Shown piece by piece: positions 1 to 14,765 of a stretch of DNA of 23,224 bases (positions are counted from its first letter, which is position 1; every line of letters begins with the position of its first letter). This DNA comes from a virus: positions 1 to 23,224 of IMG/VR virus record IMGVR_UViG_3300043773_000329; one strand, written 5' to 3'. The notes under the pieces were generated by a model. It was not told where the DNA came from, made no database searches, and saw nothing but the letters and a program-made list of their open reading frames with translations. Made by a program: the position numbers and the translations under genes.

Positions 1-59
1 TTAGGCACACTCTATGCATCAAGGTACTTGGGAGGCACTCCCGATGCATTGTGTGAATA

Positions 60-80
60 GAGCATCCGTATGAGATGCTC
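60..80. repeat. Perfect 7-bp hairpin
   Basis: GAGCATC (60-66) and GATGCTC (74-80) form a perfect 7-bp stem around the 7-base loop CGTATGA. On the plus strand it is followed by GGGTTTGGTTTT, which is T-rich, so it could terminate a plus-strand transcript entering from the left. A second small stem, GGGAG/CTCCC, lies just before it at 30-42. No gene is visible on either side to say what it serves. Confidence 0.5.
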
Positions 81-151
81 GGGTTTGGTTTTACACTTGC
101 AGCGTCTGGACTTTCGAACTACCTCATCGGCGTTTCTCGTTAGTATCTGCA

Positions 152-190
152 AGCGAAGGCTTTCTAGGTCGCGCAAGCTTCAACTTCGCT
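152..190. repeat. Nested stem-loop
   Basis: AGCGAAG (152-158) pairs with CTTCGCT (184-190). Immediately inside, GCTT (159-162) pairs with AAGC (175-178), leaving a 12-base loop and a 5-base bulge, so 11 base pairs in all. The loop contains one of the CTAG tetramers. The function is unknown; it could be part of a structured RNA or a packaging-end signal. Confidence 0.35.
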
Positions 191-430
191 CGCACTAGGC
201 ACCTAGTTCCTTCCACGGCTACCGATGCATCCTATTGCATCCCCCTAGTGGCACCGCTAGTGCCCGATCCGATCCCGATCTAGGTAGAAACTTCAAGCAG
301 CACTTTCCAAGTTTCGCCCTTGAGCTAACTTGTCCATGCCTCGTCTTGCAGAAGCGTTTTTGCGCGCTTGCGCGCGCCGCCTACTTCGATCTAACCGATC
401 CTAGTGCGCGTCAGTCCCGCGCCGATGGTA

Positions 431-497
431 GCCGTCCTAGTTGTGAAAGAGCGCCGGACTGTCAATCCGACACTTTGGCCTCATCCTAGCGGACCGG
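431..497 (+). other. tRNA-Asp(GTC)-like fold, probably degenerate or fortuitous
   Basis: The segment folds roughly as a tRNA: acceptor GCCGTCC (431-437) against GGACCGG (491-497) with 5 of 7 pairs, TA at the position 8-9 equivalent, a short D-arm (440-452), and an anticodon arm 454-470 with loop CTGTCAA (anticodon GTC, Asp) and a stem with 4 of 5 pairs. The T-arm (474-490) has a weak stem partly made of G-T pairs, and its loop is CCTCATC instead of the conserved TTCRANY. The missing T-loop consensus, the short variable region and the acceptor mismatches argue against a functional tRNA. A decayed tRNA or chance similarity is more likely. Confidence 0.2.
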
Positions 498-656
498 ACA
501 CTTTCGACCCTTCCAGCGCCCTAGTATATACGGTATGCCGATTGCCGAAGAAACGCCGTAAACCACTGCAAATGCAGCACTTAGAGCGGATTAGTAGTCC
601 GGTGGCATGGGGGACACGACACTCGCCAACCTACATAATACCAGCTCAGATTTTTG

Positions 657-673
657 CCCCAAAACATTTGGGG
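657..673. repeat. CCCCAAA/TTTGGGG hairpin
   Basis: A perfect 7-bp inverted repeat (657-663 and 667-673) surrounds a 3-base loop. It is followed at 674-684 by the smaller GTGG/CCAC stem. Neither strand shows a T-tract directly after the stem, so it does not look like a standard intrinsic terminator. It lies about 40 bases beyond the stronger terminator candidate at 713-749 in the direction of late transcription, and might act as a backup stop or RNA-stabilising structure. Confidence 0.4.
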
Positions 674-701
674 TGGAGGCCACTTTAGGCGGCGCTGGTA
701 T

Positions 702-749
702 CCAAACACAAAGACGGCTCCCACTAGCCCTATGCCAATGGAAGCCGTC
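702..749 (-). terminator. Probable intrinsic terminator after the late operon
   Basis: On the minus strand GACGGCT (749-743) pairs with AGCCGTC (719-713). One mismatch and a further 3-bp stem (CCA/TGG) extend it, around a loop of about 15 bases. The stem is followed directly by TTTGTGTTTGG, a T-rich tract interrupted by G. It stands about 80 bases after the stop codon of the last late gene (828-1742), the expected place to end late transcription. The tract is imperfect and the loop is long, so efficiency is uncertain. A weak TTG-started frame (784-581) runs through it and is a competing reading. Confidence 0.5.
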
Positions 750-827
750 CGCCACGCCCTAGCCCACCTGTCCAAGTAAGCCAAGGCTCAAGCATTCTAG
801 CAGCACGCTAGGCGCACTGCAAGGGGC

Positions 828-1742
828 TTATGCGCTCCAAGTGTGGAAGATGGCAGGAGCCGATCCCGTGCCGTTCGTGTATGTCTCGGTGCCCGCCTTG
901 GTCGGCAGGCCCGACGAGTAGGTGATCGTCTCGTACCAGTAGGTGATGGCGTTAGGCGTGGTGGTGCCGCTCGGGATCTGCCAGCCCAGTCCCATGTCTG
1001 CTTCGTTTGTAGACACGGCACGGATCGCGGGAGCGCCGCTCGACATCAGGCAGTACCAATACAGCCGACCAGCCGTCAGCGCGGTGGCGAAGGAGAACAC
1101 GAAAGTCCCGGTCGATGCCGTGCTCTGGGTTGCGCTGACGAGGGCCGACCCGCTAGGGCGGAAGTCGCTGGTGAGCGGCTTACCAGCTCCATTGCTCACG
1201 CAGTCGTAGAGCGCGATGCGGATGTTTTGTCCAGCAGCGGCGGTCGTGATCTGCACGCGCACATCCGCGAGCGTGCCGCCTCGCACGGGAGCCACGAAAG
1301 GAATCCAGTAGGTGCGGTTCGCGGTCAGCGTCAGCGTTCCCAGCGCCACGCCCGTCCGGCAGTTGGCGATGTAGCACTGGTCTGGGTTCGCACCAGTCGT
1401 CTGCTGGTAGTCCTCGATGTCCAAGTACTGAATGTGGTCATTGCTGGTTAAGCCCGACACCAGACTGTGGCTTACAGTTGTCGAGTCAATTGGCCCCCAA
1501 CTGTTGTCTCCAAGAAGCACATCCGATGCTGATCCAGATAGCTGTGGAACGCTTCCGGCATCGATCACATCAGCCAAACGAATGGGGATCGGGTCTGTAC
1601 CTCCGAAAGCGTGTGTTGGGCCATGCAGAGGAGGAGCGTTCTCCAACAGGTCGATGCGACCGCGCAAAGCCTCGCTCTTGGCAACTACTGAAGTCTCGAC
1701 ATTGACGGGTTCGTACTGCTTGGCGTTGCGATTGACTGTCAT
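828..1742 (-). CDS. Tail fibre-like or receptor-binding protein, modular
   Basis: This 304-residue protein is the last gene of the late region. Residues 39-52 (LHGPTHAFGGTDPI) and 97-107 (GLTSNDHIQYL) are short motifs of a type that recurs in phage fibre and appendage proteins, where they form connectors or repeats before a C-terminal recognition domain. The C-terminal two thirds (about 110-304) are rich in Thr, Ser, Gly and aromatic residues with beta-strand character, as expected for a surface-binding domain. The start is supported by AAAGGA eight bases before ATG. No T7 gp17-type adaptor domain is recognisable. Codon use changes near residue 105: mixed third positions before it and strongly C/G-ending after it, which suggests a swapped C-terminal domain. 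It probably acts on the virion with the esterase encoded just upstream. Function is inferred from motifs and position. Confidence 0.7.
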   Translation of the reverse strand: MTVNRNAKQYEPVNVETSVVAKSEALRGRIDLLENAPPLHGPTHAFGGTDPIPIRLADVIDAGSVPQLSGSASDVLLGDNSWGPIDSTTVSHSLVSGLTSNDHIQYLDIEDYQQTTGANPDQCYIANCRTGVALGTLTLTANRTYWIPFVAPVRGGTLADVRVQITTAAAGQNIRIALYDCVSNGAGKPLTSDFRPSGSALVSATQSTASTGTFVFSFATALTAGRLYWYCLMSSGAPAIRAVSTNEADMGLGWQIPSGTTTPNAITYWYETITYSSGLPTKAGTETYTNGTGSAPAIFHTWSA

Positions 1743-1802: not shown

Positions 1803-3446
1803 TCAGACAACTTGGCCGGGCACCCAGTTCTGGGGCATCGGGTAGCGGACATAGCCTTTGGCCGAGCCAGCGCCTGCGCCACCGTAGTAGTCTCCGTAGA
1901 AGATCGGTCCGGGACCGACCAACGGCGAACCATTGAGGCACGAGATCATCCAGTCCTCCATGTCCTTGGCAACGACCGCCATGGACGGACGAGCGGGATC
2001 ACCCGGGACGGCTTCGACAATCTCGCCTTCGGTCGGCGTGCAGTAGCGGAACTTGACATTGGCGTTGTAGCGCGCCGTGCTGAAGTCGATCATCCGCATG
2101 ATCACATCGTCGTGCGGATCCAAGGCGGGCCACGCAAGACCACCGTGCGCCGAAGTGGCGCTACGCTCGTCGAGCGTGAAACCAGCATTGGCGATGTTGA
2201 TGATCAACCCGGAACCAGCAGAAGCGGTGTCGCCATTGGCGGCATCGTAGGTGCAGGTGGAGTTGTTGAAGGTGGCCAGCGGTAGGCCAGTGGTCCCGTC
2301 CTGCTGACGGTTCGGGAGGTTGCGGTAGGACCCGAACTTCGACAAAGTACCGTCAATACGAAGCTGTGTACAAGCTCCGCCAGTCTGAGCGACAACACGA
2401 ACTTGCGCCTTTTCCGTGAACACTCCACCGTCAATCGAGATGAGTTGTCCGGCAACAAAGCCAGTACCTCCGTTGACAATGCCACCGTTAGCCACAGTGA
2501 AGTTGTAGAAGCTTTCGCCAGCATTCCTGAACCTCACCGGGTACGCCTGACCGATGAACTCGTAGAAGTGGTACACCGGAGGCAGGTACTTCAGGTTCGC
2601 ATGGTTCTGCTCCAAGTACCACAGCAACGAGAGCTGCTCGCGGTGCCACGCGGGAAGCGCCCACAACTGCTTGCGGGTCTTCACGCCCGTGTACTTCTGG
2701 GTGTGGATCGGGTCGTTGATGGACATATCCGCCCAGTTGCCGAGACCACCGGAGAACTCCGACATAATCGTGGTGTTGTTGCGGAAGTCGGGGCAGCAGT
2801 AGTGGTTGATGATGCCCTTGACCGTCGAATCGACGCCCGGCTTGAGGCCGTAGTACGACCGGAAGGTGGTCGTCAGGCTGTCGCTGTACAGCGGGCCAGT
2901 GATTTGGCTCATCAGGCAGCGGACGCCGCCGAAGGACGAACCCATGATGAAGATCTTGTCCGGGTCGATACCGAACTCCGAAGCGCGGCTCTTCAGCACC
3001 ATGATGAACACCTTGAGCTGCTCGAACAGAGCGCCAGCAGTCAGGGGTTCATTGCCAACAGGCATCGTCGTCTTCTCTTGGAAGGTCTGATCGATGAGCG
3101 CAGCGTTTGTCGAGCTGAACTTGTCAACACGCGCATACGGGTACGAGGCATCGTTCAGAGGAAACAGGTTCTGCTGAGCGGTGAACCCGACCATCACGAA
3201 CTTGTTCGCAGTCGATTGGCGCAGTTTGTCGAACAGGAAGTTGCCGTTGCCCAAGGCGACGAACGGCAGGCGTCCATCGTTCTGGGCGGCACCGCCACCG
3301 TGGACATAGATGATGCACGGGTTCTTGTCGGAACGGGTGCCGTTGGGGTGAAGCTTGACATGGAACCGCTGGGCTTCGTAGTCTCCGCCCCAGCGGATGT
3401 CAACTTCGTCCCTGTTGGCGGCGAAGTCAAACGGGATAACGGGCAT
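1803..3446 (-). CDS. Alpha/beta-hydrolase (esterase-like) tail protein with inserted beta domain
   Basis: The 547-residue protein has the hallmarks of an alpha/beta-hydrolase. A strand leads into HGGG (49-52), the usual oxyanion-hole motif of HGGG-type esterases, and GSSFG (169-173) is the nucleophile elbow with Ser171. Candidates for the catalytic His are His434 and His445 (in DPHDD); the acid is not clear. Between them, residues about 305-422 form a Gly/Thr-rich beta segment (GGTGFVAGQL, then TGGACTQLRI, GSYRNLP, GSGLIINI). It resembles a small beta module common in phage tail proteins. It has no signal peptide, and an AAGGA site precedes the ATG. Lying between tail-like genes, it probably removes acyl groups from host surface polysaccharide as part of the virion; the substrate is unknown. 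A soluble esterase unconnected to the virion cannot be excluded. Confidence 0.75.
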   Translation of the reverse strand: MPVIPFDFAANRDEVDIRWGGDYEAQRFHVKLHPNGTRSDKNPCIIYVHGGGAAQNDGRLPFVALGNGNFLFDKLRQSTANKFVMVGFTAQQNLFPLNDASYPYARVDKFSSTNAALIDQTFQEKTTMPVGNEPLTAGALFEQLKVFIMVLKSRASEFGIDPDKIFIMGSSFGGVRCLMSQITGPLYSDSLTTTFRSYYGLKPGVDSTVKGIINHYCCPDFRNNTTIMSEFSGGLGNWADMSINDPIHTQKYTGVKTRKQLWALPAWHREQLSLLWYLEQNHANLKYLPPVYHFYEFIGQAYPVRFRNAGESFYNFTVANGGIVNGGTGFVAGQLISIDGGVFTEKAQVRVVAQTGGACTQLRIDGTLSKFGSYRNLPNRQQDGTTGLPLATFNNSTCTYDAANGDTASAGSGLIINIANAGFTLDERSATSAHGGLAWPALDPHDDVIMRMIDFSTARYNANVKFRYCTPTEGEIVEAVPGDPARPSMAVVAKDMEDWMISCLNGSPLVGPGPIFYGDYYGGAGAGSAKGYVRYPMPQNWVPGQVV

Positions 3447-3461: not shown

Positions 3462-4265
3462 TCAGAGAGAGAGGTTGCCGAGGAGAGTGGGGGTGCGGTT
3501 CTCTTCGGGAGAGCAGTGGATGAGGCCGCCGAGCAACAGCAAGCGCGGAGAGTTGGTTCCAGCATAGGAAGCACCAACAGCGAATTTCATCCCATTGGTG
3601 CAGTCAAACTTGCTGGAGCTGAGGGCCTCGGGAAAGTTGGCGTGAGCAAGAACAGTGTTCGAGGCATCAGTAGTTACCGGAACAAAAGTATCCCCAGCGT
3701 TGCTGTTGAGGACGATCCTGCTGTGCGTGATCTGCCGCCACTGCATTGTGCCGTAGTCACCAGCACCAACACTTGCCTTTTCGTTCTCGACTTGCGCTGA
3801 GATGATGGCAATTTGCGCGTCATACTTCCAAAGGAAGCGACGAGTGGTTGCTCCCGGAGTGAACGATCCGGCGTTCATCAAATGCTGATGGACGGACACC
3901 GGAGTGGCCTGCTTGGCAACGGTGGTCGTTGGGAAGGTGTTGGTCGCCGTGGATTGCGTGAACCTGACCGGAAGCTCCTTATCGAGGGTCGTCGCAATGG
4001 TGTAGAAGCGCAAAGAGATGGGATTGAGATCCGCAAACCCCTCGATCAAACCGTAAAGCGACACATTGACGATCAGCGGCCAACTGTACAAATCCTGAGG
4101 AGTCAGGGTGTACGGGTCCGTGTACACGATGTCTCCAAAGGCGTTGGTTTCAGCAGTGCCAGCCACCCAAGTGTCCTTGGTGGCAGTGACCACCTTGGAC
4201 TTGGCGTTGTCGGTGGAGCTGATCTGCTCCCCCAGAGGGGCAGAGCGGTAACGAAGAGGCTTCAT
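3462..4265 (-). CDS. Unknown protein, probable virion or tail component
   Basis: I do not recognise this 267-residue protein. It has no signal peptide or membrane segment and looks beta-rich, with many Thr, Ser, Ala and hydrophobic residues alternating. Residues about 60-90 (LYSWPLIVNVSLYGLIEG) are the most hydrophobic. An AGGAA site lies about 11 bases before the ATG, a long spacing. It ends 15 bases before the esterase gene and starts 27 bases after the HExxH gene, so the four distal genes look co-transcribed. Its place next to an esterase and a fibre-like gene suggests a tail or decoration protein, perhaps an adaptor that mounts them on the tail. That role is inference from position only. 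Confidence 0.6.
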   Translation of the reverse strand: MKPLRYRSAPLGEQISSTDNAKSKVVTATKDTWVAGTAETNAFGDIVYTDPYTLTPQDLYSWPLIVNVSLYGLIEGFADLNPISLRFYTIATTLDKELPVRFTQSTATNTFPTTTVAKQATPVSVHQHLMNAGSFTPGATTRRFLWKYDAQIAIISAQVENEKASVGAGDYGTMQWRQITHSRIVLNSNAGDTFVPVTTDASNTVLAHANFPEALSSSKFDCTNGMKFAVGASYAGTNSPRLLLLGGLIHCSPEENRTPTLLGNLSL

Positions 4266-4292: not shown

Positions 4293-4610
4293 TTACCCGA
4301 GCAGGCGCTTCGCCAGTTCGGGGTTCTGCCTGAGCATCATAGGGATCAGTTGATCCAAACAGCGGACTTGACGCTCAGTGAGGTTGAGTTCGTAGGCAGC
4401 GGATGCAGCATGGAGCATCTCGTGGAGGAGGGTGGTCGGAAGCATCTCCTCCGCTTGCTGGCTTACTTGGATCACAGGCTCAGGGTGCTCTCCATACTGT
4501 CCCCATACCTGTAGTCCTGCTACTTCTTCTACCTTGATGGTGAGGATTCCAATGTGCAGGTGAGTAGGCATCCACTTCTTCTTCTTGGTTGCTTTAGTGT
4601 TCTTTTTCAT
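4293..4610 (-). CDS. Small HExxH putative metallopeptidase
   Basis: This 105-residue protein starts with a very basic segment (residues 2-12 contain eight Lys). HEMLH at 63-67 is the zinc-binding and catalytic HExxH signature. A likely third ligand is Glu79 in LTERQV, followed by a helix ending in NPEL. This layout (HExxH, a gap, Glu, then a C-terminal NPEL-like end) is seen in short metallopeptidase-like proteins of many phages whose substrates are unknown. AGG in the leader AGCAGGTATCC gives a good ribosome binding site. It is the first gene after the 482-base gap downstream of TerL and begins the distal host-recognition cluster. It could mature tail proteins or act on a host protein; the sequence does not say which. 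Confidence 0.75.
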   Translation of the reverse strand: MKKNTKATKKKKWMPTHLHIGILTIKVEEVAGLQVWGQYGEHPEPVIQVSQQAEEMLPTTLLHEMLHAASAAYELNLTERQVRCLDQLIPMMLRQNPELAKRLLG

Positions 4611-4623
4611 GGATACCTGCTGG

Positions 4624-4644
4624 TGCTGATCTGTTGCTGATCTG
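4624..4644. repeat. Tandem 10-base direct repeat
   Basis: TGCTGATCTG occurs at 4624-4633 and again at 4635-4644, separated by one T. It lies 14 to 34 bases upstream of the start codon of the HExxH gene, within its likely leader RNA. It could be a protein-binding or leader element, or simply a slippage product. Confidence 0.5.
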
Positions 4645-4972
4645 GGTTACTAGTGTTCTGATATGAGGCCGCCGCCGGGATCCCTGCTCCGCAGACCCCT
4701 CCGGCCCACCCCTCATCCAGATACACTGTCATCACCACCCTCGTGTAAGCTTCTCCCTTAGGCTAATCCCTACCACCCTGTTCCACATCTGCTCTAGGAT
4801 TCTCTAAGACGGGACTACATCCCCTAGGCCCGAGGCACGAGTGGTCGTCGCTACGCTCCGCCCCCTCGGCCTTCCGGTCTCAAAATACCAACTCCACCTA
4901 CCAACCTCTTCCCCTTTTCTGTGTTTGTCGTCCCAAAGCCTTGCCTCTAAAGGATTTGTCGAACCCAAGGGG

Positions 4973-5001
4973 GGTACCAAGGTACCTTAGTAATTACTAA
5001 G
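4973..5001. promoter_or_regulatory. Palindromic element, possible operator, promoter or processing site
   Basis: Two GGTACC palindromes (4973-4978 and 4981-4986) are separated by AA. They abut a perfect 16-base palindrome, CTTAGTAATTACTAAG (4986-5001). The AT-rich palindrome stands out in GC-rich surroundings and lies about 90 bases after the TerL stop. Such symmetry suits a dimeric DNA-binding protein, a recombination or cleavage site, or a short RNA hairpin. On the minus strand ACTAAGG faintly recalls the initiation end of a T3-type promoter (ACTAAAGG), but the upstream half does not match. Confidence 0.45.
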
Positions 5002-5092
5002 AAAGCGCCAAACCGCGCCAAACGCAATAGGAACGCACTACAGCGATCCTGATGGGGGGCTGGTAGGTAGACACCTGTTTGCCACTCATCGT

Positions 5093-6796
5093 TTACCAGC
5101 GGCCTCTGTAGCGCGTTTGGAGGCCACCGATCCACCCTGTAGGGGTTGGCCTTGCTCCAACGGCGTGCTCCAAGAAGACCCCCAGCTCTTGATTAAGGCG
5201 ATCTTCGCGGCGCATGGCGAGCGAAGTGTCCAGATCTGCACCCATGCGTTCGACCCAGTAGTTGACGGCGATGGCTAGGGAGTCTAGGCGGTCGTCGTGG
5301 GTCAAGGAGCCACGGTCCATGGTGATGTGGGCTAGCTGGAACAGCAGGCTGTACTTGATCCGCTGCTCGACGCCCATGTCGCTGGACTCGTCCCTGACTT
5401 GCGCTAGGTCGTGCTCGACGAGGCGGCGGTCCGCGATCAGCCGATGCTGGTTCATGACTGGTTCCAGCGTCTCGATGATGCGCTTCTCCTTCTGGGTGGA
5501 GTGCTTGACCTCGGTGAGCGTGCAGGCGTGGTACTGCTTGAGGATCGGCATGAAGAGCTGTCCCCACATACCGTCCCCGTAGTTGGCTTCGTGGACGATC
5601 TCGTTGACTTCGTAGCGTTTGGCCGCTAGGGCCAGCTTCTTCAGGTTGTCTTCGGTGTATCCGCCCTTCAAGCCACCAGCACTCAGCAGGAAGAACTGGT
5701 GGGAGAGCTTGGCAAGCACGCAGAAACCAAGCTCGTCCTTGCCGCGACCGCTGGGGTCCACGGCCATCACGATGCCTTCGTACTTGGTGGGTTGGCCGAC
5801 ACGGGACAGGGGTCGGTAGTAGCGGTCCCCGCTGAACCCGACCGTTTCGATGTCCCACGCCAAGGATCGATCAGCGGCGTAGACATACTTCTCGTAGGCG
5901 TGGGTGCTGTCTAGATCGTCCACGATGAGGTCGGACAGCTTGAGGGGGTAGCGGTCGGCGTCCGACAGCGAAGTGTCCAGCATGAACTGGAGGGCAAAGC
6001 CTGAGCGCCCGTAGGACAGCTCGCGCTCCTCCAGATCGAGGTCGGAAAACCGCTTGGGATCGACAGGCTCCCCGATTTCTAGGCCCATTTCGGCCACAAA
6101 CGGGGCCAGCCGCTCTCCGTAGCTGCGGCGCTGCTTGTCAGTCGGGATCTTGGCGGGCCAAATGCGGGTCTGGTAGCCGCGATTCGGCAGGACCGTGTAG
6201 ATCGACTCGGCGGATTGGGGAGTTCCAAGGAACACCACCTTGGCGTGGTCTCCGGGCTTCAGGACGGCGTCGAATTCCTTGATGGACTCCAACAGCTTCT
6301 CCCGCATCCCGGGAGTCCACGAGTTGTTGGCTACTTCGATGTCGTCCGCGATGACCAGATCGGCGCGTGAGCCAGTGATCTGGCCAGTAATACCAACCGA
6401 ACGAACAGACGGGGCATGAGAAGCAGGAGCAGGGCCGACATCAAAGGCGATCTTGGAATTGCGCTGATCGCCCGTAGGAGCTAGGTGATTGAGGAACGGT
6501 AGCTCGTTGATCAGTCGCAGGGTGAAGGTGGTGAAGTCGTCGGCGCGTGTTTTGGACGCCGACACGACAAGGATGTTATGCGCCGGGTTGTGGTACAGCC
6601 ACCAGAGCACGAAAGCCGAGGTGATCCACGACTTTCCACAGCCCCGGTACGCTTGGATGACCGTGCGCTTGGGGCCGTGCTGCAAGTACCCGGCGATGTC
6701 GTACTGAACAGGCGTCGGATCCGGAAGGCTCAGGCCCTTCCAGCACAGGAACAGGAAGTTCCTGAAGTCTGCCAGCTCTACGGGCTTACGAACCAT
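5093..6796 (-). CDS. terL: Terminase large subunit (T7 gp19-like)
   Basis: This is the DNA-packaging motor: an ATPase that pumps DNA through the portal and a nuclease that cuts concatemers. At 567 residues it is close to T7 gp19. Walker A is AYRGCGKSW (49-57), Walker B with the catalytic acidic residue is LVIADDIE (147-154), and the coupling motif is GTPQS (191-195). The C-terminal RNase H-like nuclease shows MAVDPSG (Asp347), an HEANYGDG segment (402-409) and HDDRLDS (500-506), which supply the metal-binding acids. The start overlaps the TerS stop by 11 bases, so translation is probably coupled. All key residues are present, so the enzyme should be functional. It ends a packaging block and is followed by a large gap, which in T7 would be the end of the late genes. 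Confidence 0.96.
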   Translation of the reverse strand: MVRKPVELADFRNFLFLCWKGLSLPDPTPVQYDIAGYLQHGPKRTVIQAYRGCGKSWITSAFVLWWLYHNPAHNILVVSASKTRADDFTTFTLRLINELPFLNHLAPTGDQRNSKIAFDVGPAPASHAPSVRSVGITGQITGSRADLVIADDIEVANNSWTPGMREKLLESIKEFDAVLKPGDHAKVVFLGTPQSAESIYTVLPNRGYQTRIWPAKIPTDKQRRSYGERLAPFVAEMGLEIGEPVDPKRFSDLDLEERELSYGRSGFALQFMLDTSLSDADRYPLKLSDLIVDDLDSTHAYEKYVYAADRSLAWDIETVGFSGDRYYRPLSRVGQPTKYEGIVMAVDPSGRGKDELGFCVLAKLSHQFFLLSAGGLKGGYTEDNLKKLALAAKRYEVNEIVHEANYGDGMWGQLFMPILKQYHACTLTEVKHSTQKEKRIIETLEPVMNQHRLIADRRLVEHDLAQVRDESSDMGVEQRIKYSLLFQLAHITMDRGSLTHDDRLDSLAIAVNYWVERMGADLDTSLAMRREDRLNQELGVFLEHAVGARPTPTGWIGGLQTRYRGRW

Positions 6797-7010: not shown

Positions 7011-7246
7011 GGGAAGATGTACTTGGCGATGATGGAAGCAACGGTGGCGACTGCGGCTGCCCAGCCTAGGAACCACGCCCTAGACATCTCAAGCTCGGCA
7101 ATTCTAGTTTCAAGTTTGGCGATCCGCTCGGCAACTTGCGTTTGTCGGTCGCTCATGGTTTCGATCTTACCTTCGATGCGGCCAATGGCCACCAGAACCT
7201 CGACAAGGTTAGCATCCACTTTTGCGTTGCTCATGATGTCACTCAT
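7007..7246 (-). CDS. Small coiled-coil/tail-anchored membrane protein, probable holin
   Basis: The 79-residue protein has a charged helical segment with heptad pattern (about 12-53, including ERIAKLETRIAELE) and one C-terminal transmembrane helix (about 58-77, GWAAAVATVASIIAKYIF). This plan resembles XhlA-type holin-associated proteins, and the position between the gp16-like gene and TerS is where T7 has its holin (gp17.5). It likely sits in the inner membrane and helps start lysis. Holin identity rests on topology and position. The ATG at 7246 overlaps the end of the giant gene by eight bases. An ATG four codons later (7234) is an alternative, with GAGTGA upstream as a possible ribosome binding site. 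It ends in an ATGA overlap with TerS. No endolysin is in the window. Confidence 0.7.
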   Translation of the reverse strand: MSDIMSNAKVDANLVEVLVAIGRIEGKIETMSDRQTQVAERIAKLETRIAELEMSRAWFLGWAAAVATVASIIAKYIFP

Positions 7247-10200
7247 AGATGGCGAGCTTCTCCGGGGCCTGACCGACCGCAGCCAATCCGCGAGCTTGCT
7301 TGATTTGCATCACGGCATTACGCAGCTTCGGGTACTTGCGCTGCATTTCGACCCACGCACGGGCGCTGTACTTGGCCATTTCTCCCCGGATGGCCAGCAC
7401 ACGCGGTGAATCCATGTACTCGCTGCTGTACGGCGACATGGACTTGTAGCGGTCGGAGCGGATCAGGGCGCGCACCGACTCTTCCATCGTCATGCCGCGC
7501 AGCGTGATCTTGCCCGTCGATTCCTGCAAGAAGTCGAACGCATTGCGCCCGTCTTCCAGCTCGATGCGGCGAAGATCGAGTCCGTCTCGGTTGTAGTGCG
7601 CCCCACGGAAGGCACGACCGAGCGAAATCAGCTCGCTGCGGAGTTCGTCGTCGAGGACCGGGACCATGTTGATGGGCGAGAAGAGATCCGGACCAGCACG
7701 CTCGGTGCGGGTCATCGGACGACCCATCAGGTCTCGAGCGGGCAGGTTCTCGTTCGACAATCCCGGGATCTGCGAGTAGATGGCGGACACCAGAGCATCG
7801 TCGAAGGACTGGTCGTTGACGCGCTTGTAGTCGTCGGTGTAATCCGTCAGCGTCCGCGTCATCGACGAGAACGGCACCAGAGAACCAGCCTGACGCACGG
7901 CCCACTTCTGGAATGCCGAGGAATCCTGCGTCGAGAGGAGTTCGACCATGGTCTTGACTCCTTGCAGGTAGCCCTTGTTGGTCAGGTTGTTGACCAGCGA
8001 CATATAGAGCGAGGCCATGCCCGCCTCGATGGTCGAGAAGTTCTGCTCGTCCATGTTGGCGTACTTAGAGGCAAGCGACAGGTCGGCCATCGTTCCGAGC
8101 AAGGTGGTGAACGGGTCGAGGCGACCGAAGCTGTACCAGTTGTCTCCGACTCGGATCGAGTACGGCTGGAATCCGGCTTGGATCCAAGTGGCCCTCTCGT
8201 CCTTGTTCTTCGGGCCGTAGCCCGTGATCATGCCGGACGCGGCCAAGGCCATGCCAGCCCCGACGAACGCCGTTCCAACGATGGAACGACCAACCGCTTC
8301 GGAGCGGACGATGGGATCGGCACTGTTCAGTTCCTTGATGAATCGCGATTCGTTCTCGCGCAGGCTGTCCACCAAGAAATTCGGCGCTCCGATCTTCTCC
8401 ATGCGATCAGCCAGCTTGGAACCAAACCGCTGGTTGGCCCACTGCATGAGGTGGACCGGAGCGGCGCGGTCTCCGGCGTAGATCAGGGCGTTGACCGGGG
8501 TGCTGACGAACGGCAGGAACAGGCGCGAGGACGGGTGCCTGCTGACGAACTGGTTGAGGGACTTCTGCCACGCAAAGCGCGGATCCGCCTGCATGGTGGC
8601 CTCCTTGGCCCCGTACAAGCTGGCGTCCATCATCGCCTTGATATCGTAGGAGGATTCCATGGTGCCAGCGGTAGCGCCCATCTCCGCCCACAGCCGATCC
8701 TTGTAGGATTCGGCGTACTCGTTGATCTGCTTCATCGAAGCAGTCGGTCCGAGATTCCTGACGGCTTCGGTCTGGCCATCCTTCAGCAGACGCTCGTTGG
8801 TCAGGAACTCCCCATCAAGAATGGCCTTGTCCATGGCCTCCTTGATGCGCGTCTCGCGGGCCGAACCGACGATGCCCTGCTTTTCGAAGTTCTCGTACAG
8901 GCGGGCATAGAGCTGGCCGCGATAGTTCATCTGCTTGAAGAACTCGTCGCCAGTCATGATGAGGCGCTGCGGAAGGCTGAACGCGCTCAACATGAAGTCG
9001 GCGCGAGCGACGAACTTGTCGGCCTCGGCCTCGGTCCGCTTGCCGCCTCTGGTGGCCAGCTTGCGGATCATCGGCAAGTTCCTGCTCGACAAGACATTCT
9101 GCGGGGCGGCTTCGTAGGTCGATCCGGTCCCGATGGGCTTCTTCTCGACGAACGCCCGCTTCAGCATGGTCGTGGAGTCCATGAAGCCACGGATCATGCC
9201 CTGATAGGTGCGGAAGCCGACCGACATGGCTCGGGCACCGTCCTCGTAGCCTCTGGCTGCGCGTGCGGCCCCGCCGAGGATCTGCTCGATGGGGCGCATC
9301 GTCGCCGTAAGCGAGTTGGCAATGCCCTGAACGCCGACCCAAGTCGTCGAGCTGGACACCAGCGCATTGATCCACAGCTCGTTGTGGAAGTCGAAGAAGC
9401 CCACGCGGCGCATCGCATTGGCGATGTTGCTGACGATAGGCCCGATGGACTCGCCCTTTTTGACTTGGTTCTCCAGCAGCGACAAGTACTTGTTGAAGGT
9501 GATGATGATCTTGTCGCGACCGCCAAGCTTCTTGAGGATGTCCTTGATGCCCTCTTCCCCGTAGATGCGGCGGAGGGCGGCAAGTTGGCGCAGCGTGCCT
9601 TCGTCGAACTCCTTGACGCGGACTCGCGGAGAAACCGGAGCCGGGGCGGGAGTGGCCGCAGGCGGGGTTCCGGTCGGCGGCGTAGCAGGAGCAGTCGTGG
9701 CCGAAGCGGCGGTGGAGGTGCCCGCAGAGGCAGCCGGAGCGCCTGTAGGCGTAACAGCCGGGGTGCCCAGAGGGGCAGCCGGGGTCACGGTCGGGGCTGC
9801 TGTCGGGGTGTCGTAGGAGATCTTGAGGTCACCCACGCTGCTCTTGATCTCGGCGCGCAGCGACCGCAGCAGGCGGCCCGCTTCCGACGACACGCCACGA
9901 ACGGCACCGACAATCTCCCCGTGGCCGAGGATCTTCATCATGGTGACGATGAGTTCCTCGTCGGAAATCGTGTTGTCGGTCATCTTCGGCTGAAGGACGC
10001 CGATGTCTCGGACGATTTCAGCGTTGCTGGCGACCATCACGACACGCGCACGATAGAGGCGGTGGGTGATCTCGCGCAGGGTCTTGGCATCGGTGCGAAG
10101 CTGGGTGGCGATGTCCCAAGCATTGAGGCCGGACTCTTCCGCGAGGAACTTGAGACCCATGGTCTCCAGCTCCTTCATCGACAGCTTGCCCAGATCGGTA

Positions 10201-13200
10201 GAGCCGCCGTTGAGCTTGCGCCGCTCCAGACGCCTACCGACGACATAGCGTTCCACCACGCGGAGGAACGAGGCGTCATCGCCCTCGATGAGGAGGTTCT
10301 TGAAGTTCAGCGTGGCGGCCTTCTCCATCAGCCACGCATCGACCAGCTCCTCAGGAGCAAGGTTGCGCGGGTTGACGCCCTTCGGGCCGAGGGTGGCCGG
10401 GTTGTTCTCCGTCCACCAGATGAGGTCTTCGGCGTCCTGCGCCGAGGGGATCTTGCCAGCCTCGATCTCTGCGCCGATATCTTCCGGCTTGCGGCGAATG
10501 CGCTCCGGGGCAGGAGCGGCTGAGGGCGGAGTCGGGGTGGTGGGAGGAGTAACGGGCGGGGTGGGAACGGCGGCGGCAGGCGTGGGAGCAGCCGGAGCAG
10601 GAGCAGCCGGAGCAGGAGCAGCCGCAGCAGGAGCAGCCGGAGCCGGAGCAGCCGGAGCGGTGGCTCCCGACAGTTGCGAGTCTACTTCCTTGAGCTGCTT
10701 GATGATGGAGCTGACTTCTTCGACAGCTTTGGCCTCCTGCTCCATATCCTTGGCAGCGGCCTGCTTCTTCTCGGCCTTCTTCAGCGCCTTTTGCAGCTCA
10801 GCTCGCCTGCTCTTGAGTGCGGCAACATCGACCGCCGGAACAGCAGCAGGAGTAGGCTCAGGGACGGCAGCAGCGGGGACAGGCGCGGGGGCGACTTCAG
10901 CAGCAGCGGCGCGAGCCACCGGAGTTTCCACGGCAGTTACGCCCTGTTCCTTCAGCGCCTGCTTTACGACCTTGCCGTGGGCGATGGCTTCTTCGACAGA
11001 CAGCCCAGCCGCTTCCAAGGCAGCCCGATACTTGGGGGCCGACTTGGATGCCTTGCCTTCGGCGTCCTTGGCGAGGATGTACGCGACCTTGTCGTAGTCG
11101 CTGGCGAACTCCAGCACATCGTTGCCGTAGCGCGGCTTGGCCCCGGCGAGGTCTCGCGGCAGCGTAAACGAAGCCGGATCGCCCGCAGGCGCGGTGGGGG
11201 CAGCAGCCGGAGCCTCTTCGACGGCATCGGCAATCTCATCCACGGCCTCGGCGCGAACACCCTCATCAGGGCTGGCCAGCTTCTCTGCCAGCTCAGGCTT
11301 GGCTTCGACGATCTCTTCAACCTTGGCGGCAATCGGAGACTCGGAAACAACGCCATCGGCCTTGTCCTCAACGGCAGCGGCGACTTCGCGCTCTACCTTG
11401 CGCCTACGCTTGACGGAGGCAGCGCGCTCCTTGGGCGCCTTGGGGCTGGTTCCCTCCGGGACCAACGGGGCCGCCGTGGAGGGGAACAGGGAGGTGGTGA
11501 CAGGACCCGTATTCAGCTCGACGACATCGAAGACGGGTTCCGCAGCCTCGGCGGGAACCTCAGCCTGCGCCTCAACGGGCGCTTCGGTGGGGGCAGCGGC
11601 GGGAGGCAGGGACTCAGCAGTAACCGACTGCTTGACGATCTCGGCTTGTGTGCGGATCGTGGCCACTTGCTCTTCGTATTCGCGAGCCAGCGTCTTCAGC
11701 TCCAAAGCCTTCTTGCGGATATCTGCCCGCAGGTTCTTCGGGGCTTCATTGATTGACGCCGTCAACTGGCTCGACTCTTCCATGGCGACGCGGCGCTTGT
11801 CGTCAAGGGCATCAATCTGCGCCTTGGCTTCCGCGTCGATCCTGTCCTGCTCGGCCTTGATGCGGGCCTGCGTGTTCTCATCGGCAGGCGCAGGCGTCAG
11901 GTTGGTTGTGGGCTGAGGCTCTTCAGCCGCAACGGCCTTCTTGCCCTTGCCTTTCGGCTTTTCTGGGGCCTCTTCGACGCCCTCAAGGGTGGCGCGGTCT
12001 AGCGTTCTGGAGTACTCAAGTTGCTTGCGCCTAGCCTTTTGAACGGCAGCCTTATACTCAGGGCTGTCAGGCCCCTTGTCCTTCAAGACCGCCTCTGCGT
12101 TCTTTTGCGCCGCGTCTCGCGCTTTGCGGAGGGAGGTCAGCGTGGTGCTCTGCACCGTAACCGAGAACTCGCGATTGCCGCCCTTCAAGGAGCTTTGCGG
12201 TTCGGCGGTGGCAACCAAGGTCAGGATCTGCTTGATCTCGCCCACCGTGATCGGAATCGACATGGTGCGCTTGCTCAGCTCCGTCATGTCCTTTTCCGCA
12301 CGAGCTTCGCCACTCTTCTTATTGGCGTCGGCTTTTGCGGAGACACCTTCAGTAGCTGCGGCAAAGATCTCCTTTGCCTCTGCCTCAGTGATGTCACCTT
12401 CTCCAACGCGCTTCTTCAAGAAGTTATCGACGACATCAATGTTGCCGTCAGTCAGTTGGTAGCGAGAGACGGCCATCCATTGAATGGCCTCTTTGACGCT
12501 CAGTCCGAGCTGCTTGACTTGGCGGTCGCCTTCGTTGATCTCCTTCCGAATGGCTTCTGAAATCTTGGCCTGCTTCTTGGCCGCTCCAGCCGCCTCGGCA
12601 GCTTCTGCCTTTTCAGCCGCAACATCGACTGCGCCCTTCTCGGTCTCGATCAAGCCAGTGTCGGCGGTGGACTTCGCTCCGCTGGCCTTCTTGCTTGAGA
12701 TCATGTCCTCAAGCTTGCGCTTGGAACCATCGATGATGGAGACCAAAAGGCGCTTGGCTTCCGGAGTCGGAACAATGCCGATGGTCTTGAGGTAGTCGTC
12801 GGCAAGGTTCTTGATCTTGCTCGAAGCGTGGTCGTTGGCGAGCACAAGCAGGGCGCGGACAATGTTCGTTCCCGGCACTTCCTTGCCGTACTCGGTACCA
12901 AAGACGATGGGCGGAGCATCGGTTGCCTTACCGAACTTAGGGGCAGTCTCGATGGCGTTGGCGGTGGTGTCGAACCCGTTCAGCAGCTTGGGGTACGGGA
13001 TCGACGAAGCCAGCTCGATCCCGGTCAAGCCGTTGTCGATGCCCTCCTTCATAGCGCCGTTGATCTTGGAGACCTCCGCATCGGTCAGCGAATCAAGCGT
13101 GCGGTTGTAGACCGTCTCCACGCCGAGCTTGGACAGCCCGCGCAGCGACAGGACGCTGTTCGTTCCCGCCCGCACACGGCCAGCCAAGAACTGCTGCATC

Positions 13201-14765
13201 ATGCTGTCGGCGGTTTCGACCCCGAACGCCTTGCGGAGGGACGCCGTGAAGTCGCTCCAGATCAGGTTGGTCTGCGCCAGCAATCCGCGAACGCCCTTGT
13301 CCTTGACCAAAGACAGCTTGGCCTGACGCTGCTGCGTGGCCAGCGTGCCGTTGGTGGCCCACCACTCGGCGGGCGAGATGTACTGGTACTCGTCGTGCGC
13401 GATGATGTCGCGGACAGCGTTGGCAACCTCGCCATCGTTGCTGGCTTCACGCAGGCGCTCAAAGCGTTCGGTAGCCTCCTCGCTCTTGGACAGGTACGCC
13501 TGCCGCTCGGACAAGAACTCAGACACGACCTTCCGGCGCTGCTTGGTGGAGAGGCGCTGCTCCAAGGCGTGCCACAGCTCGTGCATCGTGTTCTCGCGCA
13601 CGGAGCCTTGCCGGAACGATTCAGAGAAGATCGACACAGTCTTGCGGAGGTAGCTGTACGAAGCCGTGACCCCACGCTCGGGTGCCGTGCCGCCAACCGA
13701 GACAGACACATCATCGAAGTTGCGGGCACCGACCATGCCCACGAACTCCATGACGGCGTCCCGCGCCTGTCCGCGCAGTCCGTCCGCGATCTTGGTGTCT
13801 TGCAGCAGCTCGTTGACCGTTCCGCGCCAGACATCAGGCTCGACATCGCCAGCCCCGACTTCGCCGCGAAGCGCATCCATCTCAGGATCGCGCCCAGCCT
13901 CGTAAGCAAGCGGCTCCATGGCGTCATCGACCTTGCGGCCAAGAGCCTTCTTGCGGTCCTCCGCGACACGCAGGGACTGCTGATCGATGTAGTTGTCGAA
14001 CTGCTCGTCAAAGATGCCGACCGCCCCGGAGGCGGCCTCGAAGTCCGACAGACCGCCCGCCTTGTACTTCTTGTACTCGCGGATCATCTTGCTGCTGCGG
14101 AACAGGGGGTCCACCAGCGATCCGAGGATGCCGCCCTCCGCAAGGTTCTTGAGGCGACCCTCAAGCTCCGTATCATCCATGTCCGTGGCCAAGTACTCTG
14201 ATACGGCATTCTCGAACGGCGTGCCCTTCACCAAGTCCGACAAGCGACCGTCACTACCTTGGAAGGCGGCAAAGTCCACGATACCGCCGCGCACCGCCTC
14301 GGAGGCCATGGTGTCCTTGGCCATCCACTTGCCCACCTTGCCCAGCTTGCCCAGACGACCAGCCATCCCGAGCGCCGAGAACGGGATCAGGAACTGCGTC
14401 AGCCCCTCCGCGAAGCCGCCAATCATGGTCTTTGATTGGCCGAACACCCGATCCTCGTCGGTGTAGTCCGGCAGCGCATCAAAGGACGCGATATCAAGCA
14501 GACCGTAGACGCCTTGGACCGCGCCTTCCAGACCACGCGGAAGGAACAACAGCGTGTCCTCCAGCGACAGCAGGCCGCCTTCTTCCTCGCCGTTGCGGCG
14601 GTAGGACAGGGCGGCATCGGTTCCAGCGAACTGGCCGGGATTGCCGACAGCGCGGTTTGACGCCCAGTCATAGCCACCCGTGTAGCGAATCTGGGTGGGG
14701 CGGCTGTCGCCAAACAGGCTATTGCTCGGCTGATCGTCCAGCTCGTAGTCGAAGATGTCGCTCAT
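7239..14765 (-). CDS. Giant polyvalent internal virion protein with zincin motif (gp16 position)
   Basis: At 2,508 residues this is nearly twice T7 gp16 (about 1,320) and fills the same slot after the gp15-like gene, so it probably enters the cell with the DNA as part of the ejection channel. The N-terminus (about 65-150) resembles conserved segments of large phage internal proteins. HELWH (395-399) and Glu467 in SPAEWWA form a zincin HExxH...E signature. Coiled coils lie near 965-1041 and 1312-1361. Ala/Pro/Thr linkers lie near 1280-1312, 1362-1422 and 1648-1716, with a helical domain of about 215 residues between the last two. From about 1808 to the end is a helical domain with one hydrophobic stretch (about 2158-2182). 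I see no lytic transglycosylase signature. The start makes an ATGA overlap with the upstream gene. Peptidase activity is inferred from the motif only. It may be processed after assembly. Confidence 0.85.
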   Translation of the reverse strand: MSDIFDYELDDQPSNSLFGDSRPTQIRYTGGYDWASNRAVGNPGQFAGTDAALSYRRNGEEEGGLLSLEDTLLFLPRGLEGAVQGVYGLLDIASFDALPDYTDEDRVFGQSKTMIGGFAEGLTQFLIPFSALGMAGRLGKLGKVGKWMAKDTMASEAVRGGIVDFAAFQGSDGRLSDLVKGTPFENAVSEYLATDMDDTELEGRLKNLAEGGILGSLVDPLFRSSKMIREYKKYKAGGLSDFEAASGAVGIFDEQFDNYIDQQSLRVAEDRKKALGRKVDDAMEPLAYEAGRDPEMDALRGEVGAGDVEPDVWRGTVNELLQDTKIADGLRGQARDAVMEFVGMVGARNFDDVSVSVGGTAPERGVTASYSYLRKTVSIFSESFRQGSVRENTMHELWHALEQRLSTKQRRKVVSEFLSERQAYLSKSEEATERFERLREASNDGEVANAVRDIIAHDEYQYISPAEWWATNGTLATQQRQAKLSLVKDKGVRGLLAQTNLIWSDFTASLRKAFGVETADSMMQQFLAGRVRAGTNSVLSLRGLSKLGVETVYNRTLDSLTDAEVSKINGAMKEGIDNGLTGIELASSIPYPKLLNGFDTTANAIETAPKFGKATDAPPIVFGTEYGKEVPGTNIVRALLVLANDHASSKIKNLADDYLKTIGIVPTPEAKRLLVSIIDGSKRKLEDMISSKKASGAKSTADTGLIETEKGAVDVAAEKAEAAEAAGAAKKQAKISEAIRKEINEGDRQVKQLGLSVKEAIQWMAVSRYQLTDGNIDVVDNFLKKRVGEGDITEAEAKEIFAAATEGVSAKADANKKSGEARAEKDMTELSKRTMSIPITVGEIKQILTLVATAEPQSSLKGGNREFSVTVQSTTLTSLRKARDAAQKNAEAVLKDKGPDSPEYKAAVQKARRKQLEYSRTLDRATLEGVEEAPEKPKGKGKKAVAAEEPQPTTNLTPAPADENTQARIKAEQDRIDAEAKAQIDALDDKRRVAMEESSQLTASINEAPKNLRADIRKKALELKTLAREYEEQVATIRTQAEIVKQSVTAESLPPAAAPTEAPVEAQAEVPAEAAEPVFDVVELNTGPVTTSLFPSTAAPLVPEGTSPKAPKERAASVKRRRKVEREVAAAVEDKADGVVSESPIAAKVEEIVEAKPELAEKLASPDEGVRAEAVDEIADAVEEAPAAAPTAPAGDPASFTLPRDLAGAKPRYGNDVLEFASDYDKVAYILAKDAEGKASKSAPKYRAALEAAGLSVEEAIAHGKVVKQALKEQGVTAVETPVARAAAAEVAPAPVPAAAVPEPTPAAVPAVDVAALKSRRAELQKALKKAEKKQAAAKDMEQEAKAVEEVSSIIKQLKEVDSQLSGATAPAAPAPAAPAAAAPAPAAPAPAAPTPAAAVPTPPVTPPTTPTPPSAAPAPERIRRKPEDIGAEIEAGKIPSAQDAEDLIWWTENNPATLGPKGVNPRNLAPEELVDAWLMEKAATLNFKNLLIEGDDASFLRVVERYVVGRRLERRKLNGGSTDLGKLSMKELETMGLKFLAEESGLNAWDIATQLRTDAKTLREITHRLYRARVVMVASNAEIVRDIGVLQPKMTDNTISDEELIVTMMKILGHGEIVGAVRGVSSEAGRLLRSLRAEIKSSVGDLKISYDTPTAAPTVTPAAPLGTPAVTPTGAPAASAGTSTAASATTAPATPPTGTPPAATPAPAPVSPRVRVKEFDEGTLRQLAALRRIYGEEGIKDILKKLGGRDKIIITFNKYLSLLENQVKKGESIGPIVSNIANAMRRVGFFDFHNELWINALVSSSTTWVGVQGIANSLTATMRPIEQILGGAARAARGYEDGARAMSVGFRTYQGMIRGFMDSTTMLKRAFVEKKPIGTGSTYEAAPQNVLSSRNLPMIRKLATRGGKRTEAEADKFVARADFMLSAFSLPQRLIMTGDEFFKQMNYRGQLYARLYENFEKQGIVGSARETRIKEAMDKAILDGEFLTNERLLKDGQTEAVRNLGPTASMKQINEYAESYKDRLWAEMGATAGTMESSYDIKAMMDASLYGAKEATMQADPRFAWQKSLNQFVSRHPSSRLFLPFVSTPVNALIYAGDRAAPVHLMQWANQRFGSKLADRMEKIGAPNFLVDSLRENESRFIKELNSADPIVRSEAVGRSIVGTAFVGAGMALAASGMITGYGPKNKDERATWIQAGFQPYSIRVGDNWYSFGRLDPFTTLLGTMADLSLASKYANMDEQNFSTIEAGMASLYMSLVNNLTNKGYLQGVKTMVELLSTQDSSAFQKWAVRQAGSLVPFSSMTRTLTDYTDDYKRVNDQSFDDALVSAIYSQIPGLSNENLPARDLMGRPMTRTERAGPDLFSPINMVPVLDDELRSELISLGRAFRGAHYNRDGLDLRRIELEDGRNAFDFLQESTGKITLRGMTMEESVRALIRSDRYKSMSPYSSEYMDSPRVLAIRGEMAKYSARAWVEMQRKYPKLRNAVMQIKQARGLAAVGQAPEKLAIYE
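10588..10658. repeat. 15-base-unit repeat encoding an Ala/Pro linker
   Basis: The plus strand shows about four and a half degenerate copies of GCAGCCGGAGCAGGA. They are read on the minus strand as alternating Ala and Pro in the linker of the giant protein (about residues 1370-1393). The unit is a multiple of three, so copy-number change would lengthen or shorten the linker without breaking the frame. It is coding and not a separate element. Confidence 0.75.

Follow-up and report, generated by a model that had tools for sequence, protein, structure and literature searches.

The window analyzed here, a virus record of 23,224 bases, derives from a T7-like podophage whose recognized genes all lie on the minus strand; they encode a capsid protein resembling those of T7-like phages, tail proteins, internal virion proteins, and the small and large terminase subunits. 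The large terminase, whose closest counterparts in isolates (Roseobacter phages) are 56% identical, is followed by genes for a 105-aa protein, a 267-aa protein, an alpha/beta-hydrolase, and a 304-aa protein with an N-terminus similar to a 192-206-aa tail-fiber-like protein of relatives (Table 1). The predicted hydrolase ORF is real: it starts with ATG, is preceded by AAAGGA, and encodes 547 aa on the minus strand, the original prediction having given no strand. Since no signal peptide was evident in this protein when its sequence was judged by eye, secretion by the host is unlikely. The hydrolase-bearing end of the window is duplicated in a second record, L009 (10,069 of 10,070 bases).

Some further features of the region were recorded. 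No genes are evident in two stretches that flank the cassette region, one separating the terminase from the 105-aa gene (4611-5092) and one located at the end of the window (1-827); no tRNA was found. The gene of the 105-aa protein directly follows that of the large terminase and is kept across the clade; its HExxH motif reads HEMLH, or HELLH in relatives, and the protein is possibly a small metallopeptidase as judged from this motif. The internal virion protein of 2508 aa (7239-14765) includes the motif HELWH, and extended parts of it are rich in Ala, Pro, and Glu; its counterparts in G001 and G002 differ strongly from each other.

Table 1. Positions of the features discussed (window coordinates unless a locus is named)
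Feature	Position	Strand	Basis
Alpha/beta-hydrolase-fold protein, 547 aa, entire ORF	1803..3446	-	Pfam, profile comparison, model
Hydrolase core, N-terminal part (residues 14-306), comprising the strands through beta7 (PPVYHFYEF)	2529..3407	-	model and alignment
Inserted beta-rich domain, ~120 aa, residues 307-427, phage virion type	2166..2528	-	model, sequence match
Hydrolase core, C-terminal part, residues 428-505; helix 445-460, beta8 466-469, helix 489-504	1932..2165	-	
Variable C-terminal tail, residues 506-547	1806..1931	-	low-confidence part of the model; 31-45% identity
HGGG motif at residues 49-52 (HSGG in L015), putative oxyanion hole	3291..3302	-	
GSSFG nucleophile elbow, residues 169-173, Ser171	2928..2942	-	
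Invariant DPHDD, residues 443-447; His445 candidate base	2106..2120	-	role inferred
Large terminase, T7 type; conserved cassette flank	5093..6796	-	
105-aa protein, HExxH; conserved flank, terminase on one side, cassette on the other	4293..4610	-	
267-aa partner protein; adjoins hydrolase at all five known loci	3462..4265	-	
304-aa probable tail-fiber or minor structural protein	828..1742	-	
Connector proteins carrying a BD-FAE domain	L123:2949-6137, L124:2958-6134 (also L125-L127)		

Fold of the hydrolase and its inserted domain

An esterase-type alpha/beta-hydrolase fold, as originally proposed, is borne out by family matching, profile-profile comparison, and modeling. The 547-aa protein matches the Pfam family BD-FAE (PF20434) with E = 1.2e-7 and 31.9 bits against a cut-off of 26.8, as do all five aligned family members, and its match to Abhydrolase_3 (PF07859) stays below the cut-off (14.8 bits versus 25). 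A single profile-profile comparison with bacterial BD-FAE proteins gave a probability of 97% (E 4e-11). The resemblance to esterases exceeds chance. An AlphaFold2 model built from the five family members alone reached a pLDDT of 45; a second model, for which ten distant hydrolases were added and one duplicate member was dropped, reached a mean of 60.9. The characteristic alpha/beta core is present in the second model, whose confidence is middling, with the best core blocks at 75-92 and block means of about 31-66 across residues 431-490. The structural comparison that had been proposed as a check returned only esterases among the Foldseek matches listed, and VIA-align ranked carbohydrate esterases first. 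Its top match, the carbohydrate esterase 6xyc (Z 17.9, rmsd 3.4, 239 aligned residues), and the structure 6tkx (Z 17.6) align with residues 12-506 of the model at an identity of about 15%, and the tannase chains 3wa6 and 4j0g align at Z of about 16. The fold and the GxSxG motif are thus common to the phage protein and the BD-FAE/carbohydrate esterases of gut bacteria; the phage protein differs from these in bearing an insert of ~120 aa and in lacking a histidine after strand 8.

In the model, the insert interrupts the hydrolase core between strand 7 (residues 291-294) and the helix that begins at residue 445. It varies more among relatives than the N-terminal core, with 41-45% as opposed to 60-71% identity. 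Weak similarity links it to PHROG 9703, annotated as head decoration (E 0.003), and in one hhalign comparison it was 33% identical (E 2.4e-5) to the GGTGYTVGD repeat of a 1062-aa P22 gp10-like (Hc3) connector protein from locus L123, which itself carries a BD-FAE domain. A tblastn search of the reference phages with the insert gave one weak match only (E 0.5). Lidded feruloyl esterases and MHETase, as well as tannases, likewise have a domain added between strand 7 and the helix that follows, and their catalytic acid is located after this domain (PMC6461665). It is this lid position that the insert occupies according to the model. The lid of the feruloyl esterases and MHETase confers substrate specificity and is helical (PMC6461665), whereas the phage insert is a beta-rich domain of phage type. 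A further difference concerns the disulfide that flanks the triad in these enzymes and is formed by cysteines beside the catalytic serine and beside the histidine (PMC6461665), as no cysteine adjoins GSSFG in the phage protein.

The putative active site and its missing histidine

Both motifs, HGGG and GSSFG, were located exactly as claimed, HGGG being the oxyanion motif of esterases of the hormone-sensitive lipase type. GSSFG sits between a strand (160-170) and a helix (172-182) of the model, as befits a GxSxG nucleophile elbow, and Ser171 is invariant across the family and in an alignment of 14 hydrolases. Within the family, DPHDD, His215, and His445 do not vary, nor does GSSFG apart from the final G of its flanking GG; three of four distinct members retain HGGG. 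Asp443-Pro444 of DPHDD, located past the insert, is similar to the acid motif commonly seen in such enzymes, but lies in a part of the model with pLDDT below 50. Alpha/beta-hydrolases are described as having a "totally conserved" histidine in the loop that follows strand 8 (PMC11878206). This residue has no counterpart here: residues 470-488, between beta8 and the last helix, and the stretches aligned with them are free of histidine in all four distinct members. The canonical triad is therefore incomplete and any catalysis putative. Of the Ser-His-acid triad that the original reading as an enzyme presupposed, the serine elbow stands and the strand-8 histidine does not, which, by the criterion given with that reading, refutes it in part.

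The absence of this histidine from every member, together with the HSGG found in L015, favors an alternative in which the protein is a non-catalytic adhesin: the hydrolase fold would serve as a glycan-binding scaffold, the insert and the 267-aa protein would provide specificity, and Ser171 would be a relic. Inactive alpha/beta-hydrolase families are known (PMC11878206), and the locus would then exemplify a phage adhesin derived from an enzyme fold. This alternative deserves serious consideration and seems rather unlikely all the same, given the invariant GSSFG elbow with Ser171, the retention of HGGG in most distinct members, and the invariance of His215 and His445.

If the protein is an esterase, a base has to be sought elsewhere. 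Seven histidines are invariant in the family (29, 33, 49, 215, 268, 293, and 445). Since only four distinct members are known, invariance of a single residue is weak evidence. From the topology of the model, His215, His445, also His49 of HGGG, and possibly His293 would lie near the edge of the active site, and the best candidate bases would be His215, where strand 6 ends, and His445, where the helix following the insert starts. A more specific version of the esterase reading, in which a virion beta domain substitutes for the lid, His215 or His445 has become the catalytic histidine instead of one after strand 8, and the cassette replaces the tail fiber, is put forward tentatively and is more doubtful than probable. 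Such a rearranged triad would constitute an exception in a superfamily whose strand-8 histidine is regarded as fixed.

Variability of the cassette and the tail-fiber question

The family is small. A tblastn search with the 547-aa protein gave no match up to E 1 among 50,697 reference phage records. Besides L009, four IMG/VR loci carry the gene (L012 from genome G001, L013 from genome G002, L014, and L015), their products being 51-58% identical to the 547-aa protein; L013 and L014 encode the same 524-aa protein, which leaves four distinct family members including the one in the window. An ORF scan of 79 loci fetched through a terminase search (L012-L090) revealed no others, so the family appears confined to relatives with a terminase of ~80% identity. 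In all such relatives that have DNA at this position (L012-L015), the gene is kept. The genome G001 (42 kb; L106) also harbors a T7-type RNA polymerase and an integrase (L106:8816-9622 and L106:5687-8128), which suggests from gene content that it is a temperate T7-like phage.

The hydrolase gene and the adjoining partner gene form a cassette that varies between otherwise similar genomes. Between L012 and L013, the flanking products are 99% (terminase), 94% (101-aa protein), and 96% (400-aa protein) identical, and those of the cassette 62% (hydrolase) and 38% (265-aa partner). At the DNA level, identity drops from 94-99% to 43-79% over the two cassette genes; it is back at 88-98% in the 400-aa gene, and the 206-aa gene contains another low patch (62%). 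L013 and L015 show the same pattern, with 97% and 96% for the following genes and 41% and 56% for the cassette. At every locus where the 267-aa partner was detected (five of five), it adjoins the hydrolase, and no relative of it was detected in the reference phages. Since the gp16-like internal virion protein diverges as well (36-59% identity between G001 and G002, next to a terminase region of 96%), variability is not unique to the hydrolase cassette, and the two variable islands are plausibly both host-facing. The pattern of the cassette is typical of host-recognition genes, would suit a binder as well as an enzyme, and may result from selection on receptor use. A sharp mosaic joint was observed at L012:600-762 relative to L013, where the end of the gp16-like gene is 54% identical and the DNA just beyond it 98%.

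This context also bears on two readings that do not place the protein at the host surface. Several relatives from the reference set have a lysozyme or amidase annotated adjoining or overlapping the terminase match, which would fit a lysis or envelope-breaching enzyme of the LysB type at this position. Searches of Pfam, PHROG, and PDB sequences, however, detected no similarity to LysB or cutinase families, such variable gene pairs are unusual for lysis enzymes, and the protein contains an inserted domain of virion type; a lysis function is thus very improbable. An accessory esterase acting within the infected cell, encoded by an auxiliary metabolic or lysogenic-conversion gene, would agree with the integrase in G001 and with the isolate-phage alpha/beta-hydrolases that were checked (Mycobacterium phage Gaia and the lambda-like 4A7), which are accessory genes among regulatory, replication, or recombination genes. 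The late-operon position between terminase and fiber-like genes, retention in L012-L015, the virion-type domain within the protein, and variation resembling that of host-recognition genes nevertheless make this explanation improbable too.

T7 carries its fiber gene with gp16 on one side and the terminase genes on the other. A more distant relative, G003, has a protein with the T7 tail-fiber N-terminal domain (PF03906) and a second fiber protein between the gp16-like and terminase genes, and PF03906 was also found in G004, both genomes serving as positive controls. No match to PF03906 was obtained in the window, in the 42 kb of G001, or in G002, and in the window the small terminase gene directly follows the gp16-like gene. 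The 206-aa protein of the relatives matches tail-fiber PHROGs weakly (E 0.005). Because no PF03906 fiber is recognizable in this clade, an adhesion module is best sought in the cassette together with the fiber-like genes that follow the terminase, and by the comparative evidence the cassette is most likely that module. The "tail module" of the original prediction is thereby narrowed to a variable, probably adhesion-type cassette with which the late operon closes, past the gene of the large terminase.

Taken with the fold, this arrangement renders it fairly probable that the 547-aa protein is carried in the virion of the T7-like phage and directed at the host surface, and that it is probably also an esterase, catalysis accounting for somewhat over half of that reading. 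Its body would be an alpha/beta-hydrolase of the BD-FAE/carbohydrate-esterase type, in which the beta insert sits as the specificity lid does in feruloyl esterases. The usual T7 tail fiber would be replaced by the hydrolase, the product of the fiber-like gene after it, and the 267-aa protein, which may act as an adaptor. At adsorption, the hydrolase protein would bind a decorated surface glycan, from which Ser171 would most likely remove an ester group, either acetyl or a larger acyl.

Esterase folds in phage virions and probable adhesion modules

Known tail esterases are, as far as checked, mainly SGNH proteins (PMC13123978), which upholds the SGNH part of the original statement that tail deacetylases are mostly of other folds. 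SGNH tail deacetylases such as gp63.1 of coliphage G7C and receptor-binding proteins of Klebsiella prophages (PMC13123978) would share the role proposed here, i.e., removal of esters from a surface glycan at adsorption. They differ in fold and motifs from the present alpha/beta-hydrolase, and the activity of gp63.1 has been shown, whereas that of the phage protein is only proposed. The suggestion of an undescribed type of enzyme is better put more cautiously. Virion-associated lipases of Cellulophaga and Pseudomonas phages, likewise ester hydrolases of the virion by prediction, have been reported without validation (Pires 2016, as cited in PMC5380687), and the alpha/beta-hydrolase is among the depolymerase folds that DepoScope lists (PMC11326577). 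The protein described here has no tblastn match in any of the 50,697 reference phage records. Novel in this clade are a virion-type domain in the middle of a hydrolase at the lid position, a variable cassette with a dedicated 267-aa partner, and the lack of the strand-8 histidine. An esterase fold other than SGNH appears to have entered phage adhesion modules, here with a virion domain as its lid. If active, the protein would add to the ways in which phages are known to remove ester groups from host surfaces, and its missing histidine would test how fixed the triad is.

In other uncultured phages, the hydrolase fold has separately been fused to structural proteins or lies next to them. A BD-FAE-type hydrolase adjoins a collagen-like tail fiber in L128 (4989-7031); a hydrolase domain lies within a multidomain protein of 1851+ aa in L129 (4908-10462), and similarly in L130; and in L132 (3123-10219) such a domain shares a protein of 2365+ aa with cadherin-like repeats and a part resembling subtilases. 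By sequence, L123, L124, L128, and L129 retain the Ser, Asp, and His motifs, which argues against a purely non-catalytic adhesin. A tblastn search of the reference phages with the L128 hydrolase gave seven partial matches, all of them in unannotated records; several are short and might be DNA of bacterial origin. Literature searches on feruloyl esterases of phage tails and on lipases as tail-fiber depolymerases returned nothing useful.

An eps15-like podophage (PF12236 portal, GP7 capsid) encodes a 557-aa BD-FAE protein (L104:17356-19029, identical to L103:892-2565) with the portal gene on one side and the scaffold gene on the other; no relative of this protein was found in IMG/VR or the reference phages. 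A "DxH" motif apparently common to this hydrolase and DPHDD was rejected (hhalign E 0.1, with 183 of 2000 shuffles scoring as high).

The closest parallel to the domain combination of the 547-aa protein is offered by L123-L127, in which a BD-FAE domain is located near the C-terminus of the P22 gp10-like (head closure Hc3) connector. Here too, a BD-FAE domain and a GGTGY-type beta repeat reside on one polypeptide. The order of insertion is reversed: in L123-L127, the hydrolase is inserted in the connector and keeps its Ser/Asp/His motifs, whereas in the 547-aa protein it is the hydrolase that the beta repeat interrupts.
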